From: an uncultured Comamonadaceae bacterium
Lineage (GTDB): Bacteria > Pseudomonadota > Gammaproteobacteria > Burkholderiales > Burkholderiaceae
NCBI GenBank assembly: GCA_946482595.1
Contig: CAMLSD010000081.1
Span: 1 to 23,401 of the forward strand
Direction of reading: 5' to 3'
Length of the DNA: 23,401 nt
Shown here piece after piece: positions 3,472 to 16,883 of the stretch (its first letter is position 1; the number at the start of each line of letters is the position of its first letter). The notes under the pieces were generated by a model. That model was not told where the DNA came from and did not search any database. It was given only the letters and a program-made list of their open reading frames with translations. The translations under genes and the position numbers were made by a program.

Positions 3472-4206
3472 ATGACCGACCCGCGTACCGCCCTGGTCCT
3501 GTTCTCCGGCGGGCAGGACTCCACCGTCTGCCTGGCCTGGGCCCTGTCGCGCCATGCCCGCGTCGAAACCCTCGGGTTCGACTACGGCCAGCGCCATCGC
3601 ATCGAACTCGACTGCCGCCAGCAGGTGCTGCATGAACTGCGCCGCCAGTTCCCCGACTGGGCGACGCGCCTGGGCGACGACCACCTGCTCGACCTGTCAC
3701 TGCTGGGGCAGGTGTCGGACACCGCACTGACCCAGGAGCGGGCCATCGAGATGAGCGCCAGCGGCCTGCCCAACACCTTCGTGCCCGGTCGGAACCTGCT
3801 GTTCCTCGGTTTTGCCGCCACCATCGCCTACCGGCGTGGCGCCAGCGTGCTGGTGGGCGGCATGTGCGAGACCGACTACTCCGGTTACCCCGACTGCCGC
3901 GACAACACCCTCAAGGCCCTGCAGGTGGCCCTGAGCCTGGGGCTGGACGCGCCCATGACCATCGAGACACCGCTGATGTGGCTGGACAAGGCGCAGACCT
4001 GGGCGCTTGCCCAGGCCCTGGGCGGCGATCGCCTTGAGGCGCTGGTGGTCGAGCACACCCACACCTGTTACCTGGGTGAACGCGGCACGCTGCACCCCTG
4101 GGGCCATGGCTGCGGCCAGTGTCCCGCGTGCGAACTGCGCCGGCGCGGCCATGAGGCCTATGTGGCCGCTGGTCTGGCAGCCCGTCCCCCCGTCTCGCCA
4201 GCCTGA
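3472..4206 (+). CDS. queC: 7-cyano-7-deazaguanine synthase
   Basis: A 244-residue QueC. It makes preQ0 from 7-carboxy-7-deazaguanine and ammonia using ATP, the last step before reduction to preQ1 for the tRNA base queuosine. The PP-loop ATP site is SGGQDS at residues 12-17. Four zinc ligands are visible at Cys199, Cys214, Cys217 and Cys220 (CGQCPACE). The family signature [12 protein letters not shown], with [11 protein letters not shown] upstream, is intact. The gap between the first and second zinc cysteines (14 residues) is longer than in the enterobacterial form. It starts 32 bp after proA with a poor Shine-Dalgarno, so translation may depend on being in the proA transcript. Confidence 0.97.
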
Positions 4207-4985: not shown

Positions 4986-6983
4986 ATGCGTTTTCGACAG
5001 CACCAGGACGCCGCCCACGCCGCATCACGGCGCCTGCTGCTGCTGTTCGTCCTGATGCTGGTGCTGCTGGTGCTGGCCGTCAATGGCGTGCTGGCGCTGA
5101 TCTACCGCATCAGCCTGCCCTGGACCGACGGTTTCCCCAACCTGTTCTTCGAGACCAACACCGCGCTGGTGCTGCTGTTCGTGCTGGGGGGCTGCTGGTT
5201 CGAGATGCTGCGCCTGCGTGCGGGCGGGCCCCATGTCGCCCGGCTGGCCGGCGGGTCGTCGATCGACGCACCCGAAGGCCAGCCGAAAGACCTCTACGAA
5301 AAGCGCCTGCGCAATGTCGTCGACGAAGTGGCCATTGCCGCGGGCATGGCGCCGCCGCGGGTCTATGTGCTGCGCCGCGAGGACGCGATCAACGCCTTTG
5401 CTGCCGGCTGGCACCCCGACGATGCCGTGGTGGTCGTCACGCGCGGGGCCCTCGAACGCCTCACACGCGATGAACTGCAGGGTGTTGTCGCCCATGAGTT
5501 CAGCCACATCCTGCACGGCGACATGCGCCTGAACATGCGCCTGGTCGGGCTGGTGTGGGGCCTGCAGATGGTCTACAACTTCGGGCGTTCACTGGCCGAG
5601 CCCGACGAACTCGGTCGCCGGGGCATGGGGGTGCTGTTCGGCTTCGGGCTGATGGCCGTCGGCTCGCTGGGCTGGGTGGCTGGGCGGCTTCTGAAGGCAG
5701 CGGTGTCGCGCCAGCGCGAGTACCTGGCCGATGCCTCGGCCGTGAAGTTCACCCGCAGCGTCGAGGGCATCGGTGGTGCATTGCGCAAGATCGCCGACCA
5801 GGCCTGGCGCCGGCAGGACCATCTTCACAATGCCCAGGCTGAAAGCCTGTCGCACCTGCTGTTCGTGTCGAACCTGAACTGGGCCTCGTTTGCCACCCAC
5901 CCGCCACTGGGTGAGCGCATCCGGCGCATCTACGGCTTCGAGGTCGTGCCGCTGGCCGCCAAGGTGCTGCCGCCCGAAGACGACGACCAGCCGGTGACTC
6001 AGCCCTTCGGCGAGATGCCGGTCCATGCGCTGGTCGACTTCACCCAGCAGGACACCGCCCCCGGCGACTTCGGCCCCGCCACCGACGCCCACCCCGTCTC
6101 GGTGATCCCCGCCACGGCACCGGCCCGCCCCCGTGTGGTGCCGACCCTGCTCGACCCGGTGCAGGTGGCCAGCGCCGACAGTCCTCTGCAACGCGAGCGC
6201 GATGCGCTCGAACGCATCCGTCACTGGCACGGCCCTGGCGAGCGTCGCACCGCGCTGCTCGCGCTGCTGCTCACCCCGGGCAGCGACAAGGAGTTGCAGG
6301 CCTGGCGCCGCGAATGCAGCGGCTTCACGCGGGCCCAGGCCGTGCTGGACGACGTCGGTGCGCTCACCAGTGCTGCGCGCCTGCCGGTGTTCGAGCGGCT
6401 GCTGCGCCACACGGCCCGGGCACCGATGGTCGAGCGGCGTGAACTGGTGCGTGCCGCCCGGCGTGTCATGGGCGCCGACGGCCAGGTGCGCCCGCTGGAC
6501 CGGCTCAAATGGCTGGCCATGCGCCACCTGCTGGCCGGCCAGGTGACGGCACCCGTGGTGCCGGCCGCAGATAACGATATGGCGCATCTGTCTGAGCACG
6601 TGGCCGCCGTGACCGCGTTTCTCGCCAGAATCGTGGATGCCGGCGATGCCGGCAGCGCAGCCGGCCTCAGCGAGTCGGTCTGGTACCGCGCCGTGATCAG
6701 GGTGGTGCTGGCTGATGCGGGCATTCCGCTGTGGCGCTCGCCCGATGCCCATGCATTGGCCCAGGCCTGGACCGGCCTGCAGCGACTGCACGCGATGCAG
6801 CGGCCCGTGCTGCTGCGCGCCTGGGTCGACGCCGCCGTGCAACTGGTGCCCGGGCAGCGCCTGGCCGAGGACGCTGCCGATGCCCTGCGGCTGGCGGCGG
6901 TCTTGCTGGATACCCCTAGCCCCAAGGCGCTGGCAGATCAATACATTGAGATTCCAGACGACAAGAAGGAGAACACACGATGA
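4986..6983 (+). CDS. Membrane M48 family zinc metallopeptidase with long C-terminal extension
   Basis: A 665-residue protein. Two N-terminal membrane helices (about 17-40 and 58-77) precede an M48 catalytic domain with the zinc site HEFSH at 170-174 and the third ligand Glu245 in REYLADASA. A further hydrophobic segment lies at about 208-232. Typical HtpX proteins have about 290 residues and act as membrane quality-control proteases; here about 340 extra residues follow the peptidase domain. The extension has a Pro/Ala-rich linker (about 335-400) and then a helical region with a stretch resembling TerB-like domains (REELVRAARRVMGADGQVRP-type; read ELVRAARRVMGADGQVRP). It pairs with lemA upstream, and its stop overlaps the start of the cytochrome gene as ATGA. 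Peptidase identity is firm; the role of the extension is unknown. Confidence 0.9.
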   Translation: MRFRQHQDAAHAASRRLLLLFVLMLVLLVLAVNGVLALIYRISLPWTDGFPNLFFETNTALVLLFVLGGCWFEMLRLRAGGPHVARLAGGSSIDAPEGQPKDLYEKRLRNVVDEVAIAAGMAPPRVYVLRREDAINAFAAGWHPDDAVVVVTRGALERLTRDELQGVVAHEFSHILHGDMRLNMRLVGLVWGLQMVYNFGRSLAEPDELGRRGMGVLFGFGLMAVGSLGWVAGRLLKAAVSRQREYLADASAVKFTRSVEGIGGALRKIADQAWRRQDHLHNAQAESLSHLLFVSNLNWASFATHPPLGERIRRIYGFEVVPLAAKVLPPEDDDQPVTQPFGEMPVHALVDFTQQDTAPGDFGPATDAHPVSVIPATAPARPRVVPTLLDPVQVASADSPLQRERDALERIRHWHGPGERRTALLALLLTPGSDKELQAWRRECSGFTRAQAVLDDVGALTSAARLPVFERLLRHTARAPMVERRELVRAARRVMGADGQVRPLDRLKWLAMRHLLAGQVTAPVVPAADNDMAHLSEHVAAVTAFLARIVDAGDAGSAAGLSESVWYRAVIRVVLADAGIPLWRSPDAHALAQAWTGLQRLHAMQRPVLLRAWVDAAVQLVPGQRLAEDAADALRLAAVLLDTPSPKALADQYIEIPDDKKENTR

Positions 6984-13877: not shown

Positions 13878-13953
13878 GGCCTGGTAGCTCAGTTGGTAGA
13901 GCAGCGGATTGAAAATCCGCGTGTCGGTGGTTCGATTCCGCCCCAGGCCACCA
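13878..13953 (+). tRNA. tRNA-Phe (GAA)
   Basis: 76 nt including an encoded CCA. Acceptor GGCCTGG pairs fully with CCAGGCC, discriminator A. Anticodon GAA at 13911-13913 in loop TTGAAAA; T-arm GGTTCGATTCC is intact. Confidence 0.98.
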
Positions 13954-13967
13954 AGATCTCTGCAAGA

Positions 13968-13990
13968 GGCCATCCACGTGATGGCCTTTT
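13968..13990 (+). terminator. Rho-independent terminator inside the tRNA cluster
   Basis: A 7-bp perfect stem GGCCATC / GATGGCC (13968-13974, 13980-13986) with loop CACGT and a TTTT tail. It stands between tRNA-Phe and tRNA-Asn, so part of the transcripts from the upstream promoter may end after tRNA-Phe. Confidence 0.65.
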
Positions 13991-14008
13991 GCTTGAAGGT
14001 CAGGCAGG

Positions 14009-14084
14009 TCCCCGATAGCTCAGTCGGTAGAGCGCCGGACTGTTAATCCGTAGGTCCCTGGTTCGAGCCCAGGTCGGGGAGCCA
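14009..14084 (+). tRNA. tRNA-Asn (GTT)
   Basis: 76 nt including CCA. Acceptor TCCCCGA pairs with TCGGGGA, discriminator G. Anticodon GTT at 14042-14044 in loop CTGTTAA; T-arm GGTTCGAGCCC is intact. Confidence 0.98.
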
Positions 14085-14096
14085 CCAAGCACACGC

Positions 14097-14172
14097 GCGG
14101 GAATAGCTCAGTTGGTAGAGCGCAACCTTGCCAAGGTTGAGGTCGCGAGTTCGAGCCTCGTTTCCCGCTCCA
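14097..14172 (+). tRNA. tRNA-Gly (GCC)
   Basis: 76 nt including CCA. Acceptor GCGGGAA pairs with TTCCCGC, discriminator T. Anticodon GCC at 14130-14132 in loop TTGCCAA. Confidence 0.98.
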
Positions 14173-14185
14173 AGCACGCTGCGTG

Positions 14186-14260
14186 GCCCATGTGGCTCAG
14201 TGGTAGAGCACCCCCTTGGTAAGGGGGAGGTCGGCAGTTCGATCCTGCCCATGGGCACCA
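14186..14260 (+). tRNA. tRNA-Thr (GGT)
   Basis: 75 nt including CCA. Acceptor GCCCATG pairs with CATGGGC, discriminator A. Anticodon GGT at 14218-14220, flanked by a CCCCC/GGGGG anticodon stem. Last gene of the cluster; no clear terminator follows it. Confidence 0.98.
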
Positions 14261-14513
14261 TCAGAGGGTGCCTCGACCCAAGGCTCGCCCGCACACTCCT
14301 TTGTATCCTTCTCGATGGCTGCTGCGATGAAGTCGCGGTGGCCGTTGTTGCATGTGCGCCATCGGTGAAGCGCGCTTGTTGACCTCGCGGCCATCGCGGC
14401 GAACGAAGTACCGGCGCAGCAGCCCGCGTTCCACGCGCAGCGCATCACGCCGGATCTGCCCGCCGCGATCATCTCGCCGCACAATGCCGGCAACACCACG
14501 ATCCCGCCCCATC
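14261..14513. other. Gap after tRNA-Thr with coding-like debris
   Basis: No complete gene here. Two stretches have codon-like composition without an intact start: a minus-strand stretch of about 33 codons reading toward tRNA-Thr (about 14360 down to 14261, containing GHRDFIAAAIEKDTK), and a plus-strand stretch 14369-14536 with strongly GC-biased third positions (contains DLAAIAANEVPAQQPAFHAQ) whose end overlaps the next gene. I cannot name either. They may be remnants of genes deposited beside the tRNA, or chance open frames. Confidence 0.35.
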
Positions 14514-14873
14514 ATGACGCCCCGGCAACTCGTTGAACACTGGGTGCAAGCCTTCAACCGCGCCGACGCGGACGCCCTGGCGGCGTTTTATGCCGACGAT
14601 GCCGTCAACCACCAGGTGGCGGAGTCGCCGGTGCAGGGCAGGGCGGCCATCCGTCACATGTTTGCCGAGGGGTTTGCCGCGGCCACCATGGTGTGCATCG
14701 TCGAGCAGATCCTCGAGGACGGCGAGTGGGCCATCCTGGAATGGCGCGACCCGCTGGGCTTGCGGGGCTGCGGCTTCTTTCGCGTGGTGGGCGGGCGCAT
14801 CGTGTTTCAGCGTGGCTACTGGGACAAGCTGAGCTTCCTGCGCCAGCATGGGCTGCCGTTGCCTCGTGAGTAA
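14514..14873 (+). CDS. SnoaL / NTF2-like small protein
   Basis: A 119-residue protein with the cone-like SnoaL/NTF2 fold pattern: LVEHWVQAFNRADADALAAF with YADDAVNHQV (first helices and strand), QGRAAIRHMFAEGF, and a closing strand region EWAILEWRDPLGLRGCGFF then GGRIVFQRGYWDKLSFL. This is the polyketide-cyclase-like or limonene-epoxide-hydrolase-like superfamily, where members may be enzymes or simple binding proteins; no catalytic residues can be assigned with certainty. The ATG at 14514 gives the normal family start; the frame is open further upstream but that part is basic and low-complexity. No Shine-Dalgarno is seen. It sits between debris and a broken sigma-factor gene, suggesting a rearranged region. 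Confidence 0.75.
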   Translation: MTPRQLVEHWVQAFNRADADALAAFYADDAVNHQVAESPVQGRAAIRHMFAEGFAAATMVCIVEQILEDGEWAILEWRDPLGLRGCGFFRVVGGRIVFQRGYWDKLSFLRQHGLPLPRE

Positions 14874-15016
14874 AAAACGTCGTGCACTGCGGCGACTTCG
14901 AGGAGCTCACCATTGCCGAGATGGCGCAACGGCTGGGCGAGCCGGCGGGGGCGGTCAAGAGCCGCCTGCACCGCGCTCGCGCCCTGGTGCGCGAGTGCCT
15001 GGTGAAGGGGCAGTGA
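14870..15016 (+). pseudogene. Remnant of an ECF sigma factor (region 4 only)
   Basis: From a GTG at 14882 to TGA at 15014-15016 this frame encodes 44 residues that match the C-terminal DNA-binding region 4 of ECF sigma factors: DFEELTIAEMAQRLGEP, then AGAVKSRLHRARALVRECL. The core promoter-binding region 2 and the linker are missing; the frame is closed by a stop at 14867-14869 inside the end of the SnoaL-like gene. It therefore looks like the 3' end of a sigma-factor gene cut off by deletion or insertion. A free region-4 peptide is possible but unlikely, since the GTG has no ribosome site. Confidence 0.7.
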
Positions 15017-15180: not shown

Positions 15181-15663
15181 ATGAACATCCGCCCCGCCAC
15201 CCCCGCCGACGCCGCTGCGATCTGGGCCATCCTTGCGCCCACCATCCGCGCAGGCGAAACCTACACGCTGGAGCGTGACATGAGCGAGGCGCAGGCCCTG
15301 GCCTACTGGCTGGGGCCGGACAAGGAAACCTTCGTCGCCGAGGAGGAGGGTGCCATCGTGGGCACCTACTACCAGCGGCCCAATCAGGCGGGCGGTGGCC
15401 GCCACGTCTGCAACTGCGGCTACATGACGGCCATCGGCGCGACCGGGCGCGGGGTGGCGCGGCGCATGTGCGAGCACTCGTTGGGTAGGGCACGCGCCCG
15501 CGGTTACCGGGCCATGCAATTCAACTTTGTGGTCAGCACCAACGAGCGGGCCGTGCGGCTGTGGCAATCCCTGGGGTTCGAGGTGGTGGGACGGTTGCCG
15601 CGGGCTTTCCAGCACCCGGTGCATGGCGAGGTGGATGCGCTGGTGATGTTCCAGGCGCTGTGA
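15181..15663 (+). CDS. GNAT family N-acetyltransferase
   Basis: A 160-residue acetyltransferase. The N-terminus MNIRPATPADAAAIWAIL is typical of GNAT. Acetyl-CoA pyrophosphate-binding motif A is visible as GATGRGVARRMCEHSL, with strand FVAEEEGAIVGTYY before it and the C-terminal NERAVRLWQSLGFEVVGRLP block. Substrate unknown; close relatives are often annotated as L-amino acid or toxin N-acetyltransferases. The frame is open far upstream, but ATG at 15181 gives the standard start. A TTACCAT element about 60 nt upstream could be a -10. No ribosome site is seen. Confidence 0.88.
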   Translation: MNIRPATPADAAAIWAILAPTIRAGETYTLERDMSEAQALAYWLGPDKETFVAEEEGAIVGTYYQRPNQAGGGRHVCNCGYMTAIGATGRGVARRMCEHSLGRARARGYRAMQFNFVVSTNERAVRLWQSLGFEVVGRLPRAFQHPVHGEVDALVMFQAL

Positions 15664-15710
15664 GCAGGGCGGGGCGCCCGTGGTCTCCGTGCCGAGGGCG
15701 CTGGTAAAAC

Positions 15711-15716
15711 TATAAT
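15711..15716 (+). promoter_or_regulatory. Consensus -10 hexamer overlapping an operator
   Basis: TATAAT matches the sigma70 -10 consensus exactly and runs into the 24-bp palindrome that starts at 15713. The -35 position (about 15688-15693) is poor. A second possible promoter has TTGACA at 15724-15729 inside the palindrome with CAAACT 17 nt later. Either start would be covered by a protein bound to the palindrome. Confidence 0.5.
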
Positions 15717-15736
15717 TTCTGTATTGACAGAAATTA
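15713..15736. promoter_or_regulatory. 24-bp perfect palindrome, probable operator site 1
   Basis: Half-sites TAATTTCTGT and ACAGAAATTA are perfect inverted repeats separated by ATTG. No U-run follows, so it is not a terminator. Its core (15716-15734) matches the second palindrome at 15848-15866 in 15 of 19 positions. Overlap with a consensus -10 suggests repression by a dimeric regulator; the binding protein is unknown. Confidence 0.65.
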
Positions 15737-15848
15737 CTGCCGGCAACAAACTTGCGCCGTGAGCAACGTCCACTGCAGTACTACCCAGGGAAGCCCTCTC
15801 GTCGTGCGGGTCGGACGCTGTTGGGAAGCCTTCGTTTTGCGCGGTGAA

Positions 15849-15864
15849 TTCAGTAATGACTGAA
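15849..15864. promoter_or_regulatory. Second related palindrome, probable operator site 2
   Basis: TTCAGT and ACTGAA are perfect 6-bp inverted repeats separated by AATG, the same 4-nt spacing as site 1. Centre-to-centre distance to site 1 is 132 bp, so looping or independent binding are both possible. It lies just before a ribosome-site-like AAAGGA (15871-15876). Confidence 0.55.
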
Positions 15865-16008
15865 ATGTCGAAAGGAATCTGCATGCGTTCCGATCTGCTG
15901 AATCTGCCCCGTGAGGGTCGGCTTGCTCACTCGGGTGCGCAAATCGACCGGTCCACCCATCGCGCCTCGGTGCGAGCACGGCACGTAGCGTACCCACCTC
16001 ATTCTTGA
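15856..16008 (+). CDS. Possible small ORF (50 codons) in the control region
   Basis: From ATG at 15856 (or 15865, or 15883, the last with AAAGGA 6 nt upstream) to TGA at 16006-16008. The 41-50 residue product starts MTEMSKGICMRSDLLNLPRE and is basic, with no motif I recognise. It ends 21 bp before the first membrane-protein gene. The ribosome site speaks for translation, possibly as a leader peptide; the lack of any recognisable family and ordinary composition speak against it. Confidence 0.3.
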   Translation: MTEMSKGICMRSDLLNLPREGRLAHSGAQIDRSTHRASVRARHVAYPPHS

Positions 16009-16029
16009 AACCCAACCCAGGAGCCTGTC

Positions 16030-16380
16030 ATGACGCTCGAACTCTTTTTCATGTCCCTGGCGCTGACGCTGGCGGTTGTCGGCGCGGCATTGCTGTATCT
16101 GCGCGGCATCACCCGGCGCGTGCTGCGCGAACTGTGCCAGACCGATGCTGGCGCGGAGTTCTGGTTGCGCACGGCCGACGTACTGGCCCTGGCGGGGTCG
16201 CTGATCCTGGTGCTCGTGTTCGGTGGTGCGGCCGGCAGCACGGCCGATGCGGTGGTGCAGTTGCGGCTGACGCTCGGCCTGGCGCTGGGGGGCGTATTCA
16301 TTGCCGTGGTGCTCGTGTCGAGCAACGTCTGGCGCAACACCGGCTCGGGCCAGGCGAGCGCCACCGAGGAGGTCATGTGA
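16030..16380 (+). CDS. Small membrane protein, unknown function (first of a three-gene set)
   Basis: A 116-residue protein with three likely membrane helices: about 5-25 (FFMSLALTLAVVGAALLYL), about 55-75 (DVLALAGSLILVLVFGGAAG) and about 83-104 (RLTLGLALGGVFIAVVLVSS). Charged residues (RGITRRVLRELCQTD) lie between the first two. I do not recognise the family. A good Shine-Dalgarno AGGAG (16019-16023) is 6 nt before the ATG. Its TGA overlaps the GTG start of the next gene as GTGA, so the two are almost certainly translated together and may form one complex. Confidence 0.75.
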   Translation: MTLELFFMSLALTLAVVGAALLYLRGITRRVLRELCQTDAGAEFWLRTADVLALAGSLILVLVFGGAAGSTADAVVQLRLTLGLALGGVFIAVVLVSSNVWRNTGSGQASATEEVM

Positions 16381-16883
16381 ACTCGGCCCTCGCACCGTGG
16401 CGGGCATGGCGGCTCAAGGGTCCGAACCTGGGCTGGTTGCCCAAGGCGCTGCGGACACGGTCCTACTGGGCCCTGGTGGCACGCTTTGCCCTGTACGGGC
16501 CGTTCATCGGGGGGCTGCCCTATGTCTGGATGGTCATCTCGCTGCCGTTCATGTTCGCGATCGGTGTGGTGCCGGCCCTCGTGACGGGCATGTTGTACGC
16601 GGCGTGGTGGGTGACGCCTGGGGCCAGGCGCCCGACGCCCGTGTGGCGCGCAGCCGTGGGGGCGATCTGTGGCGTCCTGGCCTGCGCGGCGGTGGCCGCT
16701 GTCTTCTCGCCTGCCAGCCCCGGCATGCCCTTTCTGGTGCTGGCAACGCACGGGGTGCCAGCGGCTGTGATTCTTGCGCTTGTGACGGGGTCCGGCAGGC
16801 GCCAACGCACGCTCGGCGCCACATCGGCGACCACACCCGTTCCCGCTGCGGCGCAGGCGGCATCAACCGCACGAAGGACCTGA
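16377..16883 (+). CDS. Membrane protein, unknown function (second of the set)
   Basis: A 168-residue protein starting at GTG 16377 (VNSALAPWRAWRL), with GAGGAGG at 16366-16372 just upstream. A cytoplasmic basic segment is followed by about four membrane helices: near 33-53 (LVARFALYGPFIGGLPYVWM), 56-78 (LPFMFAIGVVPALVTGMLYA), 92-110 (AAVGAICGVLACAAVAAVF) and 118-136 (FLVLATHGVPAAVILALV). The tail is basic and Thr/Ala-rich. I do not recognise the family. It overlaps the preceding gene by 4 nt, and the methyltransferase ATG follows its stop after 2 nt. Confidence 0.75.
   Translation: MNSALAPWRAWRLKGPNLGWLPKALRTRSYWALVARFALYGPFIGGLPYVWMVISLPFMFAIGVVPALVTGMLYAAWWVTPGARRPTPVWRAAVGAICGVLACAAVAAVFSPASPGMPFLVLATHGVPAAVILALVTGSGRRQRTLGATSATTPVPAAAQAASTARRT

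Follow-up and report, generated by a model that had tools for sequence, protein, structure and literature searches.

The closest described system is that of CydE from Alishewanella sp. WH16-1, a GbsR-type repressor of the MarR family for which a DNase footprint on TATTTCAGAAATTTCTGAAAGTTCA was reported (Xia et al. 2018, PMC6096048). CydE has a site in its own promoter region, the regulator gene is located beside this site, and the operon is that of cytochrome bd; a second footprint, GGGATGCGCATATGCAAAT, seems to bear no resemblance to it in sequence. CioR of Chromobacterium violaceum directly represses cioRAB (PMC11837568). GbsR and OpuAR belong to the same protein subfamily as the regulators considered here, with osmoprotectant operons instead, and a heterogeneous group of members among them and their relatives has neighbours of unknown function (PMC6207618). 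In these three papers, binding experiments were found for CydE and CioR only, and choline, sulfate, zinc, iron and cyanide stress are reported in connection with related regulators.

The window, i.e., the whole stretch of 23,401 nucleotides analysed here (contig CAMLSD010000081.1 of an uncultured Comamonadaceae bacterium), contains two related palindromes, sites 1 and 2. The initial annotation, made from the sequence alone, had left their half-site without a match to any known regulator. This view had to be revised, since the half-site matches those of GbsR-type MarR proteins. The CydE footprint (PMC6096048) likewise contains an 18-bp palindrome, TTTCAGA-AATT-TCTGAAA, with outer TTTC..GAAA, and this palindrome differs from site 1 (TTTCTGT) at positions 5 and 7. 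The operon of CioR, cioAB, is unlike the window operon. The action of CydE and CioR as repressors supports a repressor reading of the window sites. The best explanation, to which we assign a probability of about 0.8, is that both sites are operators of a GbsR-type protein and that the genes behind them, P1, P2 and P3, are repressed in trans by such a protein encoded elsewhere. This reading draws on the motif, its conservation, its genomic association, the geometry of the sites and the absence of a GbsR-type regulator gene (gbsR) from the window.

A literature search with the exact site returned PMC6096048 only. No paper was found on GbsR with DUF2269 or DoxX, nor on GbsR, DUF393 and the DCC family taken in pairs, and among papers on MarR with DCC, judged by title and abstract, none dealt with a DCC-linked GbsR operon. 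The operator class as such has been described before; the literature searches turned up nothing on the DCC-linked subfamily, and the repressor-less arrangement of the window is an unusual variant.

Sites and Genes in the Window

The features of the locus are listed in Table 1. Site 1 proved to be, as annotated initially, a perfect 10+10 bp palindrome with a 4-nt centre, and the palindrome overlaps TATAAT. For site 2, the perfect 6+6 arms were found again (TTCAGT-AATG-ACTGAA, 15849-15864); the 4-nt centre, said to be the same as in site 1, is equal in length and differs in its letters (AATG vs ATTG). The 18-bp cores start at 15716 and 15848, and coordinates and a hand count bore out the spacing of 132 bp and the agreement at 15 of 19 positions. 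Compared with the 18-bp palindrome TTTCWGW-N4-WCWGAAA, site 1 has no mismatch and site 2 has one, site 2 being a degenerate, weaker relative of site 1. Only these two places in the window lie within three mismatches of TTTCWGWNNNNWCWGAAA. The exact core of site 1 occurs in eight relatives (loci L001, L003, L072, L074, L077, L078, L107 and L113).

Table 1. Positions of the sites and genes in the window.
Feature	Position	Strand	Description
GNAT acetyltransferase gene	15181-15663		upstream of site 1
TATAAT	15711-15716	+	extends into site 1 from the left; alternative -10 candidate
Candidate operator site 1	15713-15736	none	perfect 10+4+10 palindrome, TAATTTCTGT-ATTG-ACAGAAATTA
18-bp core of site 1	15716-15733		TTTCTGTATTGACAGAAA
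-35 hexamer TTGACA	15724-15729	+	perfect, inside site 1; missed in the initial annotation
Candidate operator site 2	15848-15865	none	ATTCAGTAATGACTGAAA; 1 mismatch to TTTCWGWNNNNWCWGAAA
AAAGGA	15871-15876	+	Shine-Dalgarno-like, downstream of site 2
41-aa open frame	15883-16008	+	where relatives start the DCC gene; starts 17 bases after site 2
P1	16030-16380	+	116-aa membrane protein, three predicted helices
P2	16377-16883	+	168-aa membrane protein
P3	16886-17953	+	class I SAM-dependent methyltransferase, 355 aa

As had been noted, the related sites precede two membrane-protein genes and a methyltransferase gene, and P1, P2 and P3 are closely packed on the plus strand behind both of them. Neither P1 nor P2 was assigned to a Pfam or NCBIfam family. 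P1 has many homologues, and all those with a named source belong to Burkholderiales; close ones include P0006, P0008, P0011 and P0015, with 95, 91, 89 and 86% identity and contigs of 5 to 91 kb; its predicted structure consists of three helices (mean pLDDT 79), and this fold found no match in the PDB at E ≤0.001. P2 homologues come after P1 in L001-L003, L068 and L069. The plasmid collection contained no P1 match and no DNA match to window positions 15600-16400.

Site 1 lies 49 bp behind the stop codon of the GNAT gene, and its perfect 10-bp arms might be read as an RNA hairpin or terminator of that gene rather than a protein-binding site. This is very improbable: the arms are AT-rich and no T run follows, a terminator scan found nothing on this strand, and in relatives the motif precedes gbsR-type genes whose upstream neighbours vary.

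Comparison with Chance Expectation

The palindrome alone is weak evidence, because dinucleotide shuffling of the whole window also produced palindromes with arms of at least 10 and loops of 0-8 in 25 of 60 cases; for the lower-GC intergenic stretch, only 16 of 3000 shuffles gave one of this class. As a better, external test, a weight matrix was trained on nine related betaproteobacterial loci with the window held out. Site 1 scored 36.1 bits and site 2 scored 21.6 bits, followed by 4.2 bits for the next window position, and 60 first-order random windows reached 9.3 bits at most. With the simple consensus, the mean number of places per window in 200 shuffled windows was 0.0 when 0 or 1 mismatch was counted, 0.04 with 2 mismatches and 0.7 with 3. 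This consensus was fixed after the first 12 loci had been inspected, and the later loci therefore represent an independent test. A site with at most one mismatch was found in 7 of 9 later plasmid loci, in 13 of 14 further P1 genomes and in all 8 further P3 genomes.

In four whole genomes (21.4 Mb), TTTCTGTNNNNACAGAAA at ≤1 mismatch occurred at this locus only, and the reversed-pattern control gave 0 places. The core is thus not found at random frequency; the genome scan proposed earlier for finding a regulon revealed no large genome-wide regulon in these four genomes. A looser W pattern added one place, in genome G002, where the control gave two; the added place lies upstream of a second GbsR-type gene next to a Cyt_bd_oxida_I gene. 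At one mismatch, the looser pattern matched 21, 12 and 14 places genome-wide in G130, G204 and G117, with 8, 5 and 6 in the reversed-pattern controls, and these places are probably largely background.

Conservation of the Locus in Relatives

In the four loci found via P1 homologues (L001-L004), a regulator homologue is followed by a DCC homologue and then by P1 (4/4, tblastn). Pfam assigned DCC1-like and MarR_2 in L002, and close homologues of the regulator are labelled 'GbsR (MarR family)' in many database entries. All four have the palindrome ahead of the regulator gene, and a second copy lies between regulator and DCC gene, with at most one mismatch in L002-L004 and two in L001. The usual order in relatives is site-gbsR-site-DCC-P1, and in 17 of the 18 genomes that have a P1 match, a gbsR-type gene is flanked by the motif on its upstream side and by another copy downstream. 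The palindrome is thus kept in genomes with the downstream genes, as the initial annotation would have it; it stands there before gbsR and DCC, and none of the P1 loci examined has a site directly before P1. The Burkholderiales gbsR-DCC operons (L001-L004, L068-L073, L075-L080 and L108-L114) share the operators and at least one of P1, P2 and P3 with the window, but they still have gbsR between the sites and DCC downstream of both, whereas the window has neither gene. In L003, the P1 homologue (around position 6001) aligns from residue 12 only, and its start may be frameshifted.

A regulator homologue was present in 169 plasmid records, of which 17 were picked for taxonomic spread and joined with L001-L004 to give 21 loci. 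The motif was found with at most one mismatch upstream of the regulator in 19 of these (some gene starts being approximate); the loci without it, L031 and L032, encode remote MarR proteins with 26-30% identity. The regulator segment RSNVS, which we take to be the DNA-reading helix, proves little, because L031 carries it as well and yet has no site. A second copy behind the regulator was found in all nine betaproteobacterial loci (eight at ≤1 mismatch, L001 at 2) and in none of the other 12, where the best places had 3-6 mismatches. In seven alphaproteobacterial loci the regulator precedes annotated cydDC or cydAB genes.

Two plasmid loci showed further arrangements. On the megaplasmid of Cupriavidus metallidurans CH34 (L016), a GbsR-type gene with paired sites precedes genes for an epimerase-DoxX protein, DUF2269 and DCC; no paper was found on this operon (GbsR with DUF2269/DoxX; GbsR/DUF393/DCC). 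On a Methylobacterium plasmid (L021), DUF4166 and SDR genes are preceded by the operator at 3963-3980, a 15+4+15 palindrome overlapping with the annotated start of the regulator.

Genome Survey and a Detached P3 Gene

A survey of 399 genomes from the family of G002 detected P1 in at least 15, the scoring having taken in only some of the preliminary candidates of each genome (e.g., 11 of 55). Among 14 new P1 genomes, 13 contained the site-gbsR-site unit, followed by DCC and then P1 in 12 of these 13. The second site of L073 lies some 500 bp behind the regulator, and in G130 the unit is located about 4 kb upstream of P1. G393, with a marginal P1 match (E 5e-4), had neither site nor regulator at the locus, and no GbsR-type gene was found in its genome. 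The order in G103 is site-gbsR-site-DCC-P1-P3; therefore, the window's P1 and P3 are genes of a single operon type.

P3 was found in at least 9 of 399 genomes at E 1e-40. Seven of the eight new P3 genomes have the order site-gbsR-site-DCC-P3, and the eighth, G117, differs. There, P3 stands alone behind a perfect site with no gbsR within 5 kb on either side, and the P3 promoter, at this site, shares a run of 27 contiguous identical bases with the window at site 1. The DCC-type gbsR of G117 is located on another contig, C2, flanked by two sites of its own. Judged from this gene arrangement, G117 is a precedent for control in trans.

Absence of the Regulator Gene from the Window

The initial annotation saw no regulator gene beside the sites and considered control from elsewhere, which is probably correct: tblastn of the window with the L002 regulator gave no credible match (best E 4.9). 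A DCC (DCC1-like) gene is also absent from the window, including the position after site 2 (tblastn). Eight local alignments to L001-L004 revealed no gbsR or DCC remnants between or behind the window sites; for each of them, 17 to 190 of 200 shuffles scored as high or higher. Most relatives have both genes at this place, which favours a loss of gbsR and DCC from an ancestor of the window locus.

If the loss was recent and no cognate repressor is left, the sites could be decaying relics in front of a constitutive operon. The degenerate site 2, the weak -10 of the window and the missing gbsR agree with this view, which we nevertheless regard as improbable: site 1 is still a perfect 10+10 palindrome while the neighbouring DNA has no detectable homology to relatives, and GbsR-type genes are common in kin, with one in 25 of 26 P1 or P3 genomes searched and a second in 16 of 26 (two as split hits only).

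Promoter Elements and Leader

The -35 hexamer TTGACA inside site 1 is followed in the window by a weak -10, CAAACT, at 17 bp spacing. In 9 of 10 relatives tested, TTGACA lies at the same operator position with a better -10 at 16-17 bp, L021 being the exception; a bound dimer would therefore cover the -35 box. TATAAT has no good -35 upstream, and a promoter scan found no promoter-like site for it. From these patterns, the conserved promoter element is probably TTGACA inside the operator and not TATAAT.

The distance from site to start codon in the window equals that of the DCC leader of L070 and is one base shorter than in L072. The 41-aa frame that opens there may be a leader peptide or a leftover. 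Local alignment with three DCC proteins detected no homology: 129, 141 and 494 of 500 shuffles scored at least as high.

Proposed Regulation

Binding, repression, release by a ligand and a trans repressor in this organism are the steps that we infer for the preferred reading, repression of P1-P2-P3 by a GbsR-type protein encoded elsewhere. A dimeric winged-helix factor of this type would bind the 18-bp palindrome TTTCWGW-N4-WCWGAAA. On site 1 the dimer would cover the -35 box and exclude RNA polymerase, and the P1-P2-P3 operon would remain silent as long as no ligand frees the repressor. Site 2 lies immediately upstream of the first ribosome-binding site; it would correspond to the second copy usual in relatives and probably strengthens the repression. 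Where the regulator is encoded between two sites, as in relatives, it presumably represses itself together with DCC, membrane-protein and methyltransferase genes. In the window lineage, with gbsR and DCC missing here and both operators retained, the GbsR-type repressor would be supplied from elsewhere in the genome.

As a special case of this explanation, the operators, or at least site 2, may have been captured by the paralogue CydE, the repressor of the bd oxidase. A site at ≤1 mismatch lies right upstream of the CydE-like paralogue in G002 and, as a TTTCAG-type site, in five of eight other genomes of the family (G103, G147, G204, G237 and G399); the paralogues of G095, G025 and G306 had no site at ≤1 mismatch right upstream. 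In G075, G259 and G382, a CydA homologue is preceded at about 3.5 kb by ATTCAGTAATTACTGAAA, from which site 2 departs at one spacer base; the gene right behind ATTCAGTAATTACTGAAA in G075 (L116) encodes an ABC exporter that is CydD-like by position. However, site 1 is of the type present at DCC-linked gbsR and not at cyd, and second sites of relatives also mix both half-site types (e.g., TTTCTGTCATTACTGAAA in L016), so that we consider such a capture rather unlikely. The ATTCAGTAATTACTGAAA loci of G075, G259 and G382 are L116, L117 and L118, respectively, and a second GbsR-type gene is located 6-7 kb away in G075 and G259.

In a further reading, which we also hold to be rather unlikely, an autorepressed operon may have shed its repressor and DCC genes and kept both operators under selection, with control passing to a GbsR-type protein elsewhere, possibly CydE of cytochrome bd oxidase. 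If CydE-type control were true, membrane or quinone methylation would be tied to terminal oxidase choice.

TTTCWGW-N4-WCWGAAA is proposed as an operator code for the widespread, little studied GbsR-type MarR regulators. It reaches well beyond the single palindromic CydE footprint found in print and predicts DCC oxidoreductases, small membrane proteins and a methyltransferase as targets. Together, the repressor-less window locus and the detached P3 gene of G117 suggest a route from a local autorepressor to a multi-target trans regulator.

Other Features of the Window

Rfam at gathering thresholds detected only tRNAs in the window. A cluster of four tRNA genes (Phe, Asn, Gly and Thr) lies at 13878-14260, and ARAGORN added a tRNA-Lys at 1143-1229 that was not in the Rfam output. 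An isolated 45-aa sigma-70 region 4 fragment (Sigma70_r4_2, E 9e-9) at 14879-15016, located immediately behind a SnoaL-like gene at 14352-14873, is probably what remains of a gene for an ECF sigma factor.
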